Origin: Acidobacteriota bacterium
Lineage (GTDB): Bacteria; Acidobacteriota; Terriglobia; Terriglobales; SCQP01
Direction of reading: 5' to 3'
Assembly (NCBI GenBank): GCA_027459505.1
Contig: DAIDIE010000036.1
Span: 1 to 64,000, forward strand
Length of the DNA stretch: 64,000 bases
Shown: piece by piece, positions 4,061-35,043 of the stretch
How positions within the stretch are numbered: position 1 is the stretch's first letter
Layout: the number at the start of each line of letters is the position of its first letter
Notes under the pieces: generated by a model
The model's database searches: none
Told to the model about the DNA's origin: nothing
The model's input: the letters and a program-made list of their open reading frames with translations, nothing else
Translations under genes and position numbers: made by a program

Positions 4061-5128
4061 ATGATCGTTTCCGCTCTGCAAAGAATCGTTCAGCGCCAGG
4101 ACCTGACGCGGCATGAAGCCCGCGATGTGCTCAACTTCATTCTCTCCGGGCACGCCAACGAAATCCAGATTGCCGGCTTGCTGGTGGCGCTGGCCATGAA
4201 GGGCGAGAGCGTGGATGAGCTGACCGGTTTCGCCCAAGCCATGCGCGACCACATCGCCGACTCCGGCTATGAAGCGGAAAATCTCGCGCAAGTGCAGGAG
4301 AGCGGTACCGGACACGACGCGTTGATTTCCAATGGCGCGCTGGTTGACACCTGCGGAACCGGCGGCGACGCCAGCGGAACATTCAATATCTCGACCGCCG
4401 CGGCGTTCACCGCCGCCGGCGCGGGACTGCGCATCGCCAAGCATGGCAATCGCGCGCTCACCAGCCGTTGCGGCAGCGCCGACGTGATCGAGGCGCTGGG
4501 TGTGAACCTTTCCTTTCCGGTGAGCCGCCTGCGCGAGTGTCTGGACACGGTGGGGATCGCCTTTTTCTTCGCTCCCCTCATCCATACCGCAATGCGCTAC
4601 GTACAGCCGGCGCGGCGCGAACTGCGTGTGCGCACCATCTTCAACCTGCTTGGCCCGCTTACCAACCCCGCCGGGGCGGACGCCCAGGTGGTGGGCGTCT
4701 ACAGCGCCGCATTGACGGGCAAGCTGGCTCGCGTGCTGGCCGCCCTGGGAGCGCGCCGCGCCTTTGTTGTGCACGGCGACGATGGCCTTGACGAGATCAC
4801 CACCACCGCTCCGACACGGGTGGCCGAGGTGCGCGAGGGTGAAGTTCATGAATACGTCCTGGACGCACGCGAGTTGGGCTTTGAGCGCGCCACCCTGCAA
4901 CAGTTGAGCGGCGGCGATCTGCGCGAAAACGTGCGCATTGTCCGCGCCATTCTGGATGGGCAGCGCGGACCCAAGCGCGATATTGTGGTGTTGAACACCG
5001 CCGCCGCGCTGGTGGCGGGCGGCATGGCGCGCGATCTGCCAGAGGGCGTGCAGCGCGCCAGCGATTCGCTGGACAGCGGCGCCGCCCGGGCCGCTCTGGA
5101 ACAGTTGGTGGTTTTTACTAACAGCTAA
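4061..5128 (+). CDS. trpD: Anthranilate phosphoribosyltransferase
   Basis: This gene encodes 355 residues. It transfers phosphoribose from PRPP to anthranilate in tryptophan biosynthesis. The conserved DTCGTGGDASGTFNIST loop that binds PRPP and Mg, KHGNRALTSRCGSADV, and RTIFNLLGPLTNPA are all present. The ATG at 4061 (MIVSALQRIV) is the family start. The frame is open back to 3791, but that stretch has no family match. There are no other trp genes nearby, so it stands outside a trp operon. Confidence 0.95.
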   Translation: MIVSALQRIVQRQDLTRHEARDVLNFILSGHANEIQIAGLLVALAMKGESVDELTGFAQAMRDHIADSGYEAENLAQVQESGTGHDALISNGALVDTCGTGGDASGTFNISTAAAFTAAGAGLRIAKHGNRALTSRCGSADVIEALGVNLSFPVSRLRECLDTVGIAFFFAPLIHTAMRYVQPARRELRVRTIFNLLGPLTNPAGADAQVVGVYSAALTGKLARVLAALGARRAFVVHGDDGLDEITTTAPTRVAEVREGEVHEYVLDARELGFERATLQQLSGGDLRENVRIVRAILDGQRGPKRDIVVLNTAAALVAGGMARDLPEGVQRASDSLDSGAARAALEQLVVFTNS

Positions 5129-5203
5129 AAATGTAGCCAGGCACGCCGCGGGTTCGTCTTGACTGCCAGGCATCAGCATCCGAAACGAAAGGCGGAAAAC
5201 TCG

Positions 5204-5725
5204 ATGAAGTTTCTGTTGGGTCTCATCATTGGCATCCTGATCGCCCCATTGATCGGCATGGCAATCCTGAATTGGGGCGGATTTCCGGCCGGGGCCGACA
5301 ATAAACCCATGGCCATGGAGCGCTACCTGGCGCATCTGGGCCTGAGCGCCTCCATGCGCGGCGCCAGCAAGATCCAGTCGCCATTGCCGGCCAGCGAGGC
5401 AAATATCGAGCAGGGCGCGAAGGTATATTCGATGAATTGCGCCGACTGCCACGGCCTGCCGAAGCAGCCGCCCACGCCGATGGCCCAGGGCATGAACCCC
5501 GGTCCCCCGCAGTTCTTCAAATTTCCGCAACGTGGTCCCGCCGAAGACCCCGTAGGCGACACCTATTGGATGGTGCAGCACGGGGTGCGCATGACGGGAA
5601 TGCCATCCTACGCCAACGGCCTCACCCAGGATCAGCGCTGGCAGGTGACGTTGTTCCTCAAGAACAAAGCGCATTTGTCGCCGGCGGCGCAGCAGATTCT
5701 GGCCGGCAATCCTCCGTCAAAATAA
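5204..5725 (+). CDS. Membrane-anchored c-type cytochrome (single haem)
   Basis: This gene encodes 173 residues. An N-terminal hydrophobic segment (about residues 3-24) acts as an uncleaved anchor or signal. One CxxCH haem-binding motif (CADCH, Cys79/Cys82/His83) and a Met-rich segment (VRMTGMPSY) that probably supplies the axial Met make this a class I cytochrome c facing the periplasm. The redox partner is unknown. The ATG at 5204 follows an AAAGGCGG ribosome-binding site. It lies between trpD and the NIPSNAP gene with no clear operon logic. Confidence 0.85.
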   Translation: MKFLLGLIIGILIAPLIGMAILNWGGFPAGADNKPMAMERYLAHLGLSASMRGASKIQSPLPASEANIEQGAKVYSMNCADCHGLPKQPPTPMAQGMNPGPPQFFKFPQRGPAEDPVGDTYWMVQHGVRMTGMPSYANGLTQDQRWQVTLFLKNKAHLSPAAQQILAGNPPSK

Positions 5726-5868
5726 GGCGGAACGCGGCTTTTCCGGCGGGCAGCGCCGTCGCGCTGCCCGCCCCCCTTTACCTTGAGCCACGCCGGAGTC
5801 GCCCGCCCCTCCCGGATCGTCCGCGGCACGGGGCGGCATCCCGCCTCAACAGCACCAGGAGCCCCACC

Positions 5869-6654
5869 ATGAAGCGACGTTCCTTTCTGACCGCCGGAAC
5901 GGCGGCCACTGCCCTGCTCGGCAGTCGTGCCTTTTCCGCCCAGCAACCATTGCCAGCCGAACGGGGTGACTATTTTCTTCTGCGTGAGTACCAGCTCAAC
6001 CAGGAGCAACGCTCCGCGACCATGGGCTACCTGCAAACGGCGCTCGTCCCGGCGGCCAATCGCCTCGGCGTTTCGCCAGTGGGCGTGTTTGAGGTGGCGG
6101 TGGGCCACACCGGAAATGTCTACGTCCTGCTCCCCTCGCCCAACCTGGAACTTCTGGTGAACCTCGATCTCCACCTGGAACAGGACGCCGCTTACAACAA
6201 AGCGGCCCAGCCTTGGCTACGGGCGACGTCCGCACAGCCCGCGTTTCTTCGCATTCGCAGTGAACTCATGCGCGCGTTTCCCAGCCGTCCCGGCGTGGTG
6301 AAACCGAAAACCAACGGCGGCAAGCGTGTTTTCGAATTGCGAACCTATGAAAGCCCCAGTCAGGCCGAACACGAACGCAAGGTGCGGATGTTTGAAAGCG
6401 GCGAATATGACATTTTCGTCAGCGCCGGGTTCCAGCCAGTCTTTTACGGCGACATGCGCATCGGCGAGAGGATGCCCCAACTCACGTACATGCTGGCGTT
6501 TGAAAGCTTTGCCGAGCGCGACCGCCTCTGGGCGTCGTTTGGCAACAGCGCGGCCTGGCAAAAGCTCAGCCATGAGCAGCGGTTCGCTTACGACAACATC
6601 GTCAACAACATCGATAACGTGCTGTTGACGCCGGCGGGTTACTCGCAGATTTGA
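5869..6654 (+). CDS. NIPSNAP family protein with TAT-type signal
   Basis: This gene encodes 261 residues. The N-terminus MKRRSFLTAGTAATALLG is a twin-arginine-like signal ending in an AFSA-type cleavage site, so the protein is probably exported. Two NIPSNAP-like ferredoxin-fold repeats follow. The second contains the typical FELRTYESPS start, an SAGFQPVFYG middle and a LTYMLAFES strand. The biochemical function of NIPSNAP proteins is poorly defined. The ATG at 5869 follows an AGGAG ribosome-binding site. Confidence 0.8.
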   Translation: MKRRSFLTAGTAATALLGSRAFSAQQPLPAERGDYFLLREYQLNQEQRSATMGYLQTALVPAANRLGVSPVGVFEVAVGHTGNVYVLLPSPNLELLVNLDLHLEQDAAYNKAAQPWLRATSAQPAFLRIRSELMRAFPSRPGVVKPKTNGGKRVFELRTYESPSQAEHERKVRMFESGEYDIFVSAGFQPVFYGDMRIGERMPQLTYMLAFESFAERDRLWASFGNSAAWQKLSHEQRFAYDNIVNNIDNVLLTPAGYSQI

Positions 6655-6699
6655 AAGAGCACGGGACCATAACAAAAGCGGCGGGCCCGCCGAGGCCCC

Positions 6700-6918
6700 T
6701 CACTTCCCGCCCCGCGCCGCCAGGTAAACCTGGTAGATCACCACCCCGACCATGAACAGCAGGTAGACGCGCAACAACCACATCAACGCCAGCTCATACG
6801 GGCGCAAATGGCGTCTGCCTAAGCGGCGGGAGCGTACCTCGGCGAGCTGTTCCTGCTCGAGGTTTAACAGCACGAAATCGGTATCAGCGGCCGACTGTTT
6901 TGGCGTTTTGTCCATCAT
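6700..6918 (-). CDS. Small single-pass membrane protein, hypothetical
   Basis: This is a predicted 72-residue protein (start MMDKTPKQ) with a charged N-terminal half and one C-terminal transmembrane helix (ALMWLLRVYLLFMVGVVIYQVYL). I recognise no family. It follows the NRAMP-like transporter gene at about 70 bases on the same strand and may be co-transcribed with it. A longer reading frame extends upstream into the gap before the transporter stop, but this start is the more credible one. Confidence 0.5.
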   Translation of the reverse strand: MMDKTPKQSAADTDFVLLNLEQEQLAEVRSRRLGRRHLRPYELALMWLLRVYLLFMVGVVIYQVYLAARGGK

Positions 6919-6988
6919 TGGGTTCAACAATCGAGCTAAGCATCCCTGTTCCGCGAACAGTGTAGCGTTCCCGTGCGCTTCCCACCGC

Positions 6989-8347
6989 CTACCCAGGCAG
7001 CAGATGGCCAAACACCCGGACAAAAAAGTGTGGCGCGATGATGCTGAGTCCAAACAGCACACCCGCCGCCACCAGCACCAGCACTACCAGCCCGGTCACC
7101 ACATTGGCCAGCGGAGGACTGACCAGGTCACCCATAATCTCGCGGTCATTGGCCAGCAGATAGAGAAACAACAGCGCGGGAGGCATGGCCAGCACCGCAA
7201 TCACGTTGACGATCAGCACCACGTAAACCAACGGCAGACCCGGAATGAGCACAATGGCCGCCGCGGCAAGAGCGCAGAAAAAAAGCACGCCGTAGAAGGC
7301 TTTGCCTTCGCGCAGCGGCAGGTTCAGGCTATGCGGCCGCCGCGCTACTTCTCCAAAGGCGTAGGCGGAGGAGATGGAGATCGTGATGCAGGCGACAATG
7401 CCGGCTTCGGTCAGCCCCAGCGCGAACAGTGCCGCTCCCGCGGAACCCACGACCGGCCTAAGCGCCTGCGCAAATTGCGCCTCGCGGAGACTGGCCAGAT
7501 TCAGGTGGCGCGCATAGAGAGGCGCGGTGGCAATCACCGCGGCCAGCGCACCGCAAGCCGCCAGCGCCGCCCCCGCCACCGTGTCCAAGCGCCCAAATCC
7601 CAGGTCGCGGCGGGTGAGGCCCTTGTCGACCGTGGCGCTCTGCTGGAAAAACAGCATCCAGGGCGTCACCGTCGCGCCAATATCGGACAGCAGGATGAGG
7701 AGCGTCTGCTGACTCGATCCGCTGGGCAACGGCCGCCAGGTGAACAGCGCGTGCCCCACCGCATGCCAATTGGGGTGCGCCAGCAGCGCCACGGGCACAA
7801 AGAGCAAGTTCAGCAGCGCCCCCGCCAGAGTCACCCGCTCCCAGGTCCAGTAGCGATGGGTCAGCAATGCCAATGAGAGAATGGCCAGCGCGGCGCAGAT
7901 CGCCAGCCATGCCGGCACTCCGAAATAGCTCATCCCGGCGCGCACGGCAATGAACTCGGTGATCAGCGTGAGAAAATTTCCCACTGCCAGGTCGATCGCC
8001 GAAAACCAACCCCAAAACGGTCCGAAGCGGTCAAAGATAAGCTCGGCGTGGCCGCGCTGGGTGGCGCTGGCCAGACGCACCGTCATCTCCTGCACAACGA
8101 CCGCCATGAGAAAGGTCAGGACGATGAAGGGAAGAAAGAATCCGATACCGTAACTGGAGCCAGTGCTGGCGTAGGAGAGCATGCTGGGGCCGTCGTTTTC
8201 CCCAAGCATGACCAGAATTCCGGGCCCCACCAGCAGCCACAAAAGGCGCAGGCGCGAGCTCCATCCCGTGCGCAAACGGGCGCGCGCGACCCGGCCGCGA
8301 TCGGCGGCGCGGTCCACGTCTTCATGACTGATACTGAGCTGTCTCAT
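6989..8347 (-). CDS. NRAMP-related divalent metal transporter with atypical metal-site motifs
   Basis: This gene encodes 452 residues with about 11 hydrophobic segments and the NRAMP fold signature GPGILVMLGENDGPS in the first helix. The canonical DPGN of Mn/Fe NRAMPs is replaced by an NDGPS segment. The TM6 region reads TPWMLFFQQSA rather than the usual MPHN, so the conserved metal-binding Met is not in its usual context. By analogy with known NRAMP-related magnesium transporters (NRMT), the substrate may be Mg2+ or another hard cation; this is inference. The ATG at 8347 is chosen over an upstream GTG. Confidence 0.8.
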   Translation of the reverse strand: MRQLSISHEDVDRAADRGRVARARLRTGWSSRLRLLWLLVGPGILVMLGENDGPSMLSYASTGSSYGIGFFLPFIVLTFLMAVVVQEMTVRLASATQRGHAELIFDRFGPFWGWFSAIDLAVGNFLTLITEFIAVRAGMSYFGVPAWLAICAALAILSLALLTHRYWTWERVTLAGALLNLLFVPVALLAHPNWHAVGHALFTWRPLPSGSSQQTLLILLSDIGATVTPWMLFFQQSATVDKGLTRRDLGFGRLDTVAGAALAACGALAAVIATAPLYARHLNLASLREAQFAQALRPVVGSAGAALFALGLTEAGIVACITISISSAYAFGEVARRPHSLNLPLREGKAFYGVLFFCALAAAAIVLIPGLPLVYVVLIVNVIAVLAMPPALLFLYLLANDREIMGDLVSPPLANVVTGLVVLVLVAAGVLFGLSIIAPHFFVRVFGHLLPG

Positions 8348-31349: not shown

Positions 31350-31940
31350 ATGGCTATTGCGGTAGGGACCTTGCGGTATGAGTCGCGTCGGCCGAGCCAG
31401 GCGGCGTTGCTGCATCGTCTGCGGGAACTGGCGTCGGTCCGCGTCCGGTTCGGATACCGCCGGCTGACGGTGCGCCTGAGACAGGAAGGGTGGCTGGTGA
31501 ACGCAATGCGCGTCTATCGGCTCTATCGCGAAGATGGGCTAACCTTACGGACCAAGAGGCGAACGAAGGCCGCGCAACGGCAAGGTCGGCTTCTGTCCGC
31601 CGCGGTGCGGCCGAACGAGCGCTGGAGCATGGACCTCGTACACGATCGTTTGGCCGACGGCAGGAGCTTCCGTTGCCTCAAAGTCGTGGACCAGTTCACG
31701 CGCGAGTGCCTGGCGTTATTCGCGGGCGGATCGCTGACCGGGGACAACGTAGCTCGCCATCCCGAGTCCATTGTCCTCGCACGCGGCCTACCGGTGTCGA
31801 TCACCGTGGATAACGGTAGCGAGTTCGCCAGTCGTGCGCTTGACCATTGGGCGTACCGCCGCAGTATCCACCCGCAGTTCATTCGGTCGAGACTAGAGGT
31901 GCTCACCGCCATTCCGTTCGATGTATGCACAAGGACTTGA
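31350..31940 (+). pseudogene. IS3-family transposase OrfB remnant (rve integrase core, truncated)
   Basis: The frame shows IS3 OrfB features: the HTH_21-like RELASVRVRFGYRRLTVRLR, then MRVYRLYREDGLTLRTKRR, and the rve core WSMDLVHDRLADGRSFRCLKVVDQFTRECLAL-type start with the first catalytic Asp, and ITVDNGSEFASRALDHWAYR with the second. Similarity ends at about 31890 (HPQFIRS), before the third catalytic residue (Glu). The N-terminus and OrfA are also missing. The element has no recognisable terminal repeats and is a dead fragment. Codons after 31891 belong to other sequence. Confidence 0.85.
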
Positions 31941-32086
31941 GGTATAACACAGGGCAGGACCCGTCCGATGTCTAGGTCCCGGCGGGCGGCTCGTCTACGC
32001 ATGTACAGAATCCCCACTGCAATGCCGACGACTAGGACTGCGACGGCTGCACGTGCAAGGTTCCTTTTCGCTAGTGGTGTGGGCAT
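31892..32086 (-). pseudogene. Small membrane ORF after the ABC transporter, 3' end replaced by IS3 remnant
   Basis: An ATG at 32086 behind a GGAGAG ribosome-binding site lies 14 bases after the ATPase stop. It starts MPTPLAKRNLARAAVAVLVV, has one transmembrane helix (about residues 12-29), then a basic RRRAARRD stretch. The frame runs on into the antisense of the IS3 fragment at about 31891, so the native end is lost. It was probably the third gene of the ABC operon. The family cannot be named; a membrane-anchored accessory or fusion protein is possible. Confidence 0.4.
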
Positions 32087-32099
32087 CGTCAACTCTCCA

Positions 32100-32903
32100 T
32101 TAGCGCCATTGTTGGCCTGTGGCAACCCTTTCGTCCAGCCAGCTCCAGTGCACCGATCTGGTCCCAGCAATCTCCAGGAATAGGGTTTCAAGAGAGGCGT
32201 ACTCCCTGCCGCCCCAGAGAAACGTGCGGTCGCCGCCCACCTCACCGCGCCACGCTACGCTCCCTGACACCAGCAGCGACGCACTATGGCACACAGTATT
32301 CACCGAAGCGAGATCGTGTGAAGTGATAATGATTCCGCGCCCGCCCGTAGCCAGCTTGCTGAGTAGGTTACGCATCATGGCGACGGTGGCAGGATCAATG
32401 CTTTCGAAGGGTTCATCCAGAAAAATGACTGTTGGGTTGTGAATGATAGCGGCCGCAAACGCAACTTTCTTGCGCATTCCAGTACTGAAGTCGCGCAGGC
32501 GCCGCCTGCCGGTATCGGCCAGTTCCAGGCCCGAAAGTAGTTCTCTAACCCGCAGTTCCGTAGTGTGCCGGTCCAGCCCGAAAAGGCCGGCCTGAAGTGT
32601 CAAAAGTTCATGCGCGTAAAGCTGGTCGAAAAGTGCGAGGTCTTCCGGCATGGTGCCGATGCGGCGTTTCAGCTCAATGGCGTTGGCATCATTCATTGGC
32701 CGATTCAATATCCGCACCTGACCGCCTGAAGGCGACAACAACCCAGCCATGCAGGCAACAGCCGTGCTCTTCCCCGCGCCGTTCGGCCCGATCAGAGCAT
32801 GAATTTCGCCTCGTCGCACAGCAAGATCGACACTCTCAAGCGCCTTTACCTCGCCAAAGCAGTGCGACAGCCCGCAACATTCGATAATGACATCGCTATT
32901 CAT
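32100..32903 (-). CDS. ABC transporter ATP-binding protein (CcmA/antibiotic-resistance type)
   Basis: This is a 267-residue ATPase with Walker A GPNGAGKST (about residues 38-46), a signature-like FSTGMRKKVAFAAAI and Walker B VIFLDEP. There is no N-terminal C39 peptidase domain, so it is not a double-glycine peptide processing exporter. It resembles stand-alone ATPases of drug-efflux or bacteriocin self-immunity transporters. The ATG at 32903 lies 8 bases after the permease stop. Base composition is visibly less GC-rich than the surrounding housekeeping genes. Confidence 0.88.
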   Translation of the reverse strand: MNSDVIIECCGLSHCFGEVKALESVDLAVRRGEIHALIGPNGAGKSTAVACMAGLLSPSGGQVRILNRPMNDANAIELKRRIGTMPEDLALFDQLYAHELLTLQAGLFGLDRHTTELRVRELLSGLELADTGRRRLRDFSTGMRKKVAFAAAIIHNPTVIFLDEPFESIDPATVAMMRNLLSKLATGGRGIIITSHDLASVNTVCHSASLLVSGSVAWRGEVGGDRTFLWGGREYASLETLFLEIAGTRSVHWSWLDERVATGQQWR

Positions 32904-32910
32904 TGATGCG

Positions 32911-34449
32911 TTATCCTCCCAGTACACGACTCCGAACTTTTGCATCGTTTGCCATCACCAGATGTTGGGTAACAACCCAGAGCACATATGTGGCGGCGCA
33001 GCTCAACAGTGCTGCTAAGGTGCTGCGCAGGCCCAGGCCAGAAAGTGGCATGACACCGGCCAGCTTAACAGCCAACGAGAATGCGCACACGGCGGGGATG
33101 CCTAGCCCGGCAATTGCCCCTACAGACATGTCATTGCCCGCGACCACGTTGTAGTCCGCGTCGTGCCTGGTCCAAATTGACGTAACCGTCCCGATGCAAG
33201 CATAGAGAAGCATGCCGGCCACTCCAAAACCCAACCCCGACAGAGCTAGAAGCCATGAATGGAAATATCCTAGGCCACAGAAGATGAGCCATGCCAATAC
33301 AAGGTACGTGGAGCCGATCTGAAGCGAGGCTTGCGTGGACCAAATTGCGACTGCGCTCAATTTCACCGGCGCCAGAGTGTACCTGCTCAGACCGGTGCCG
33401 TCATACCCGAACTGATTCAGTAACAAATTGCGCGGGATCAACGCACCGGCGCAAAACAGTACAGCGAACGCAAGATAGACGGAGCCAGCCGGTCCATTCG
33501 GCAGGTGCTTGGCGTCAAAACGGACGATTCCTGGGTATATAAACATGCTAACTGCTGCCGCCCAGCGGACGCGAACGGACCGCAAATGATACACCAGACT
33601 CTTGGCGTTTGCCGCAGCCGCCTCCGGCGCCCGTCCGGCGGTCACTAGCAGCCTATAGAGCCTCCATACCAGCCTCCCGCCGGATTTCTCCCCTTGCTTG
33701 AGCCACCCGGCCGCAGCAATAGCCGCGCCGAGTGTAAAGAGCCAAATCAGTGCTCGCACGATTGCAGGCACACCTTGGAACCCGCTAGAAGAGACAATCG
33801 CCGACACGTCTTCCCAAGGCGTACCGAGTAGCCAATGTAGCGCGTACAGTGCAGCGGCCAGGGATACCGAAAGAAGCGCACCGCGAATCGTACTGAAGCC
33901 ACTCTCCACCAGCGCCAGCAAAGCTAATGTTGAAAACCAGCACAATGGCATGAACAGAGCTAAGCTCGCCAAAGCGGCCTGCCACTCCACCGCCCCATAG
34001 AGAGACGCTGTACCCAAGTAGGCTGCGAATGCACTCCCAAGGCAGATCCAAATGGGATCGACGGCCACAACAAGAGCACGGGCAATCAGGCGCTGCCGGG
34101 CATTACATGGATACCGGCGCAAGCTTCGATCAGAGAAGGTGGGGAGTAGCCCCCGACCCCAAAGAAGAGTCCATAGAAGCCCGGTGGCTAGGAGGCTGCC
34201 AATAAACGAAGTTACAAAATGGGGCGCGCCGACAAGCCGAACGTGTGATTGTACCCATCCGAGACCAACGCCTGCAGTTGCCGCCGTAAACCCCAAGACC
34301 GTCATGACGCCGATTCCCAGCAGAAAGCCCACGGTAGCCTGCCGGTTCCCTCTAATCCTGGCCCACTCCATAACTAGCCTTTTTCGCACCACCGCGGCAT
34401 ATAACGAGCACCCACTCCAATTGGCAGCATTCTTTAGAAGCATAGGCAT
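32911..34449 (-). CDS. ABC transporter permease, large multi-pass
   Basis: This is a 512-residue membrane protein with roughly 12 hydrophobic segments, such as TVGFLLGIGVMTVLGFTAAT, LASLALFMPLCWFSTLALLA and ALSGLGFGVAGMLLYACIG. It has no recognised family motif but pairs with the ATPase that starts 8 bases downstream. The first gene of this operon begins at 34449, just below an AT-rich TATACT-like box and a perfect GTGTCGACAC palindrome. With the double-glycine peptide remnant upstream, self-immunity or export of a peptide is a reasonable hypothesis. Confidence 0.78.
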   Translation of the reverse strand: MPMLLKNAANWSGCSLYAAVVRKRLVMEWARIRGNRQATVGFLLGIGVMTVLGFTAATAGVGLGWVQSHVRLVGAPHFVTSFIGSLLATGLLWTLLWGRGLLPTFSDRSLRRYPCNARQRLIARALVVAVDPIWICLGSAFAAYLGTASLYGAVEWQAALASLALFMPLCWFSTLALLALVESGFSTIRGALLSVSLAAALYALHWLLGTPWEDVSAIVSSSGFQGVPAIVRALIWLFTLGAAIAAAGWLKQGEKSGGRLVWRLYRLLVTAGRAPEAAAANAKSLVYHLRSVRVRWAAAVSMFIYPGIVRFDAKHLPNGPAGSVYLAFAVLFCAGALIPRNLLLNQFGYDGTGLSRYTLAPVKLSAVAIWSTQASLQIGSTYLVLAWLIFCGLGYFHSWLLALSGLGFGVAGMLLYACIGTVTSIWTRHDADYNVVAGNDMSVGAIAGLGIPAVCAFSLAVKLAGVMPLSGLGLRSTLAALLSCAATYVLWVVTQHLVMANDAKVRSRVLGG

Positions 34450-34565: not shown

Positions 34566-34715
34566 TTAGGAACAGGCGCTGTCGGCACCGATTACGCCGC
34601 CGAAAACTGCGACGGGATCACACGTCATAACTCCAAACCCTATCAGCGCTCCACTGGCAAAGCAGCCTAACCAGCCCCCGCCACTCACCTGTTCCAGATC
34701 CGCATTATTGAGAGC
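34566..34715 (-). pseudogene. Double-glycine (bacteriocin-type) precursor peptide, 5' end lost at an inverted-repeat element
   Basis: Reading the minus strand from 34715 gives 49 codons to a TAA at 34566-34568. The first residues, ALNNADLEQVSGG, match the conserved end of double-glycine leaders (hydrophobic/acidic helix ending ELxxVxGG). They are followed by a Gly/Ala-rich, membrane-active-looking core beginning GWLGCFASGALIGFG, with three cysteines overall and an ADSACS end. No start codon exists: the frame meets a TAG inside the inverted-repeat element whose terminus is at 34717. An RBS-like AGGAGAAGG lies just beyond the other terminus at about 35050-35058. The ABC genes lie downstream on the same strand. 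Confidence 0.65.
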
Positions 34716-34716
34716 C

Positions 34717-35043
34717 TGACCTGCCCCCTAAATCCGCACAGGTGAGAGTATTACACCACGGGTTTGGGAGCGCGCAGTTGCGTTTGCGTTCCCGTGAATA
34801 AAACCGCCGCCGCCGTGCGGTGGGAAAGTGGGAAACCCGCAGGGTTTTCCAAGGCGGCAAAGCCGCCGTCTTTTCCACCGCTGCTGAAGGTACCCCCGAA
34901 CTGCGTGGGTGTTTGATAGCGCAGCCTGCTGTGTGGTTAAGGCGATGTGGCGCAAAAATGAAGGTGTCAATCAAGGATTGATGTCTCGCAAGGCTATGTA
35001 GAATCAATGGATTACCTATTTGATCGCCGCAGGGGGCAGGTCA
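34717..35043. mobile_element. ~327-bp element with TGACCTGCCCCC terminal inverted repeats (IS-derived, no transposase)
   Basis: The left end TGACCTGCCCCC (34717-34728) is the exact inverse of the right end GGGGGCAGGTCA (35032-35043). The interior has no credible transposase. It includes two adjacent hairpins: GGAAACCC/GGGTTTTCC (34831-34850) and the perfect GGCGGC-AAA-GCCGCC (34853-34867). It looks like a MITE or an internally deleted IS. No clean target-site duplication was seen. It cuts the precursor-peptide gene. Confidence 0.75.

Follow-up and report, generated by a model that had tools for sequence, protein, structure and literature searches.

In silico analyses indicate that the minus-strand frame located at positions 34566-34715 of the window (the whole 64,000-nt stretch of DNA that was analysed) corresponds, with a probability of about 0.75, to the 3' end of a double-glycine peptide gene that has been truncated at its 5' end, is probably dead and was left in an apparently foreign island after an IS-associated loss of DNA. 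On this reading the frame is a degraded example of a known peptide-gene type, and the pair of ABC genes that follows it is still open. The original function of the peptide, the role of the ABC pair and the order of events are what we infer from the sequence. The features concerned are the following:

31350 to 31885, plus strand: remnant of an IS3-family orfB (HTH_21 and rve) that forms the other boundary of the island.
31886 to 32086, minus strand: 5' part of a third gene, encoding a small one-TM protein (MPTPLAKRNLARAAVAVLVVGIAVGILYMRRR...), with the junction placed at the end of the transposase similarity.
32100 to 32903, minus strand: intact ABC ATPase gene (Pfam ABC_tran, 3.6e-29).
32911 to 34449, minus strand: intact gene for a 512-aa ABC-2-like permease with ca. 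11 hydrophobic segments.
34566 to 34716, minus strand: putative 3' remnant of the double-glycine precursor gene, with leader positions -13 to -1 and a 36-residue core.
34717 to 35043, no strand assigned: IS3-type remnant of 327 bp, with perfect 13-bp inverted ends and a partial transposase gene end.

The frame translates as ALNNADLEQVSGGGWLGCFASGALIGFGVMTCDPVAVFGGVIGADSACS* and consists of 49 codons plus a stop, which a GG cleavage site divides into a leader end, ALNNADLEQVSGG, and a core, GWLGCFASGALIGFGVMTCDPVAVFGGVIGADSACS. The core comprises 36 residues, is rich in Gly/Ala and low in Ser/Thr, and contains three Cys together with two GxxxG motifs (GALIG and GGVIG); a glycine-rich core with GxxxG motifs is a trait of class II bacteriocins. 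An earlier note on this DNA had described a 49-codon minus-strand frame with a three-cysteine Gly/Ala-rich core, lacking a start codon and ending one base from an inverted-repeat TGACCTGCCCCC element, and all of this was confirmed, the element being the one found at 34717-35043. When read 5' of 34715, the frame continues with GAGQ within the element and then meets a TAG at 34728-34730; up to this stop, no ATG, GTG or TTG occurs ahead of the GTG that encodes the V of QVSGG, the valine of the GG site itself. This GTG is the sole formal start and would yield a 40-aa product devoid of leader. The gene is not complete, both its start codon and its full leader being missing.

The leader end was scored with a GG-leader profile 12 residues wide that was built from 15 double-glycine leaders, an illustrative rather than curated set composed mostly of typical bacteriocin leader ends drawn from general knowledge and including two NHLP precursors found in this work. 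With this profile LNNADLEQVSGG reaches 25.1 bits, the lowest-scoring training leader having 25.3, and the site is unique in the window, where every other frame falls more than 4 bits below it. No equal score was obtained in 60 shuffled windows and 175 kb of natural DNA taken from related genomes, nor in 25.6 Mb of Markov-random sequence, which places the GG leader end proposed in the earlier note well above chance. Peptidase-containing ABC transporters (PCAT) read leader positions -4, -7 and -12 (also -15) (PMC7018657), which the frame fits with hydrophobic residues at -4 (V), -7 (L) and -12 (L); position -15 has been removed exactly by the junction. The frame also fits the pattern LX3E(I/L)X2(I/V)XG(G/A) (PMC3140520), with D replacing E.

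The Pfam family Bacteriocin_IIc (PF10439) covers both the leader and the core with an E-value of 1.7e-4 over the whole library. Its score of 22 bits is below the curated cut-off of 27.1, profile positions 1-6 being absent from the fragment, and is what such a fragment might give. A weak match, also below the curated cut-off, was obtained with the NCBIfam model for lactobin A/cerein 7B (TIGR03949; 0.005), and in the NCBIfam search the frame, of which only ca. 12-13 leader residues survive, gave no match to the NHLP model at E 0.1. Over 398 genomes of the class at E 0.01, the PF10439 matches extending into the leader were the window frame, four NHLP-type frames from two genomes (G161 and G261) and a spurious one; the other weak matches begin past the leader. 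Tandem NHLP-leader precursors with LSDEELEKVAGG sites occur in G261 (L046:9243-10911 and 4130-7267) and in G161 (L045), with a LanM-type lanthipeptide synthetase at a distance of a few kb from those of G261, and the loci of both genomes, which belong to the same order and class, are candidate RiPP clusters.

Searches with the peptide recovered no homologue from samples of the family (14 genomes), the class (399), the order (367) or the phylum (396), nor from GTDB r220 contigs, IMG/VR contigs or plasmids, two of these searches using exact 8-residue seeds that diverged relatives would escape. The homologues with intact N-termini that the earlier note had proposed to look for were not recovered from any of these collections. 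Those weak matches whose frames were read proved to be inside or opposite other genes and without a GG site, a check that rests on overlapping larger genes and in which some minus-strand matches were read on the plus strand. A PDB sequence search returned chance-level matches only. As judged by sequence comparison, none of these collections contains a relative of the 36-residue core; rapid evolution of the core and incomplete sampling may account for this.

The permease gene starts 117 bases past the peptide stop on the same strand, and the interval between them contains no stem-loop that performs better than shuffles. The permease has no Pfam match and the best NCBIfam match of the ATPase, whose start is likely an internal ATG (32903), is DrrA-like and below cut-off. 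The third gene is truncated, since it runs into the IS3-family orfB remnant at about 31886. The peptide, permease and ATPase frames have a GC of 0.57 and a GC3 of 0.56-0.63, as compared to 0.61-0.66 and 0.77-0.79 for the neighbouring secA, mutM, UPF0182 and mgtE-like genes. A codon model derived from the two ABC genes prefers the peptide frame among the six and one derived from housekeeping genes does not favour it, evidence that is weak because only 49 codons remain. Because the peptide frame and the ABC genes share a composition that differs from that of the housekeeping neighbours, the segment that they occupy is probably a foreign island with IS damage on either side. Within the class, the nearest relatives of the permease (ca. 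30% identity) come from six of 398 other genomes and in most cases have serS as a neighbour; a pattern search in these six genomes detected no GG peptide beside them, and the permease has no match in GTDB r220. A family of ca. 525-aa permeases akin to that of the window recurs in the class (loci L026-L031), mostly beside serS and an ABC ATPase.

The usual partner of double-glycine precursors is a C39 peptidase. No such domain (PF03412) was detected in the host genome (G000, 97% complete), matches being found in 8 of 14 control genomes, so that an intact precursor too would be without its usual processing exporter, within the 97% completeness. The adjoining ABC genes pointed out previously do comprise an ATPase and a permease, but the permease is peptidase-free, its recognisable relatives lie mostly beside serS, and no GG peptide was found with them. 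With no C39 peptidase detected in the genome, the link of the pair to peptide export is putative. That a double-glycine peptide was exported or tolerated through a peptidase-free two-gene ABC pair in the absence of a C39 exporter appears improbable; if true, this would be a novel arrangement for transport or immunity, and the ABC pair would be its sole part still intact here.

The element that abuts the frame is bounded by the inverted repeat TGACCTGCCCCCT, found at 34717-34729 and 35031-35043 (13 bp, 100% complementary). Its 34717 side is 97-99% identical to further copies elsewhere in the genome; in one of them this part is directly preceded by the preserved end of an rve-type transposase gene, which identifies the side as the downstream terminus of an IS3-type element. 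No second copy of the 35043 side was found in the assembly. The simplest reading of this arrangement would be an internally deleted IS, a fusion of ends from two elements also being possible. As regards the features of the IS3 family, terminal inverted repeats and orfB sequence were found and a target duplication of 3-5 bp was not. The element resembles MITE-like deletion derivatives of this family in having TG...CA inverted ends and in retaining the orfB end beside the right end, but differs from them by the absence of target duplication and by a left part that is single-copy in the genome.

The proximity of the element had suggested a natural insertional knockout, i.e. that it jumped into an intact gene whose start and RBS (AGGAGAAGG) would lie just across. 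Its perfect inverted ends do come within one base of the frame and AGGAGAAGG is indeed present a few bases beyond its other end; however, the flanks of the element are GCC and CGG, with no duplication of 3-5 bp, and joining them with 0-5 bases trimmed provides no in-frame ATG or GTG and restores no leader. The sole start in the joined flanks is a TTG ca. 16 codons upstream that has no RBS, and AGGAGAAGG falls inside the coding frame or precedes nothing. The flank past 35043 corresponds to the 88 bases located directly behind the mutM stop codon, AGGAGAAGG being merely part of this mutM 3'-flank sequence rather than an RBS. In the family, the synteny around mutM included SecA adjacency in one genus and revealed no empty site of the island. 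A simple insertional knockout is therefore quite unlikely, and the 5' part of the peptide gene, not being across the element, has been deleted or moved away. A chance open frame in a non-coding strip upstream of an ABC operon would be short, start-less, without homologues and below the Pfam cut-off, as is the case here, but it would hardly be expected to display a leader score unmatched either in the 25.6 Mb of random sequence or in the 175 kb from related genomes, a glycine-rich core whose GxxxG motifs recall class II bacteriocins and a composition matching that of the island, and we regard this explanation as improbable as well. Against the main reading stand the lack of a peptide homologue in the collections searched, the sub-cut-off PF10439 score, the weak codon evidence, the failure to detect a C39 peptidase in the 97%-complete genome and the absence of a GG peptide upstream of the permease's distant relatives.

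Regarding the type of precursor, the earlier proposal of a bacteriocin-type peptide is supported as far as a double-glycine fragment is concerned, but the ca. 12-13 residual leader residues do not separate class II from NHLP, because the leader specific to NHLP precursors would have been in the part that is now missing. With class II bacteriocins (PF10439; TIGR03949) the frame shares the GG leader end, the hydrophobic residues at -4, -7 and -12, a short Gly/Ala-rich core, GxxxG motifs and ABC genes alongside; it differs by having neither start nor N-terminal leader, by falling under both cut-offs, by its three Cys and by a host genome without a detected C39 exporter. With NHLP leader RiPP precursors (TIGR03793; those of G161 and G261 in the same class) it shares an LxxxELExVxGG-type leader end and a hydrophobic Gly/Ala-rich core, but no nitrile-hydratase-like leader survives, no LanM or PCAT gene is nearby and, unlike the tandem sets, it is present as a single copy. 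That it derives from an NHLP-type precursor, with a long nitrile-hydratase-like leader and a modified core, rather than from a short-leader class II gene, is possible but doubtful: its leader end resembles the LSDEELEKVAGG of NHLP precursors located near a LanM gene in a genome of the same order and the genuine weak PF10439 matches in the class were of NHLP type, but the 60-70 diagnostic leader residues are missing, the NHLP model gives no match at E 0.1, neither a modification enzyme nor a C39 exporter lies beside the frame and the core is low in Ser/Thr.

If the frame is the remnant of a double-glycine precursor gene, a C39 peptidase-containing exporter would have bound the intact product at the hydrophobic leader positions, cleaved it behind GG and released it, and the glycine-rich core of ca. 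36 residues may have acted on the membranes of bacteria nearby or have served as a signal. The gene would have come in on a small island that also brought the ABC ATPase and permease, which plausibly served in self-protection or export, and the adjacent IS3-type element may have accompanied an event, either loss or rearrangement, that removed the start codon and the leader portion upstream of -13.

These data indicate that remnants of secreted peptide genes can be recognised in raw sequence even when they lack a start codon, and they provide a 36-residue core without known homologue for synthesis and testing. Unless the ABC pair serves self-protection, the locus is a routine IS-degraded gene; if the pair is self-protection that has outlived its peptide, the strain would represent a natural example in which immunity persists although the peptide is no longer produced.
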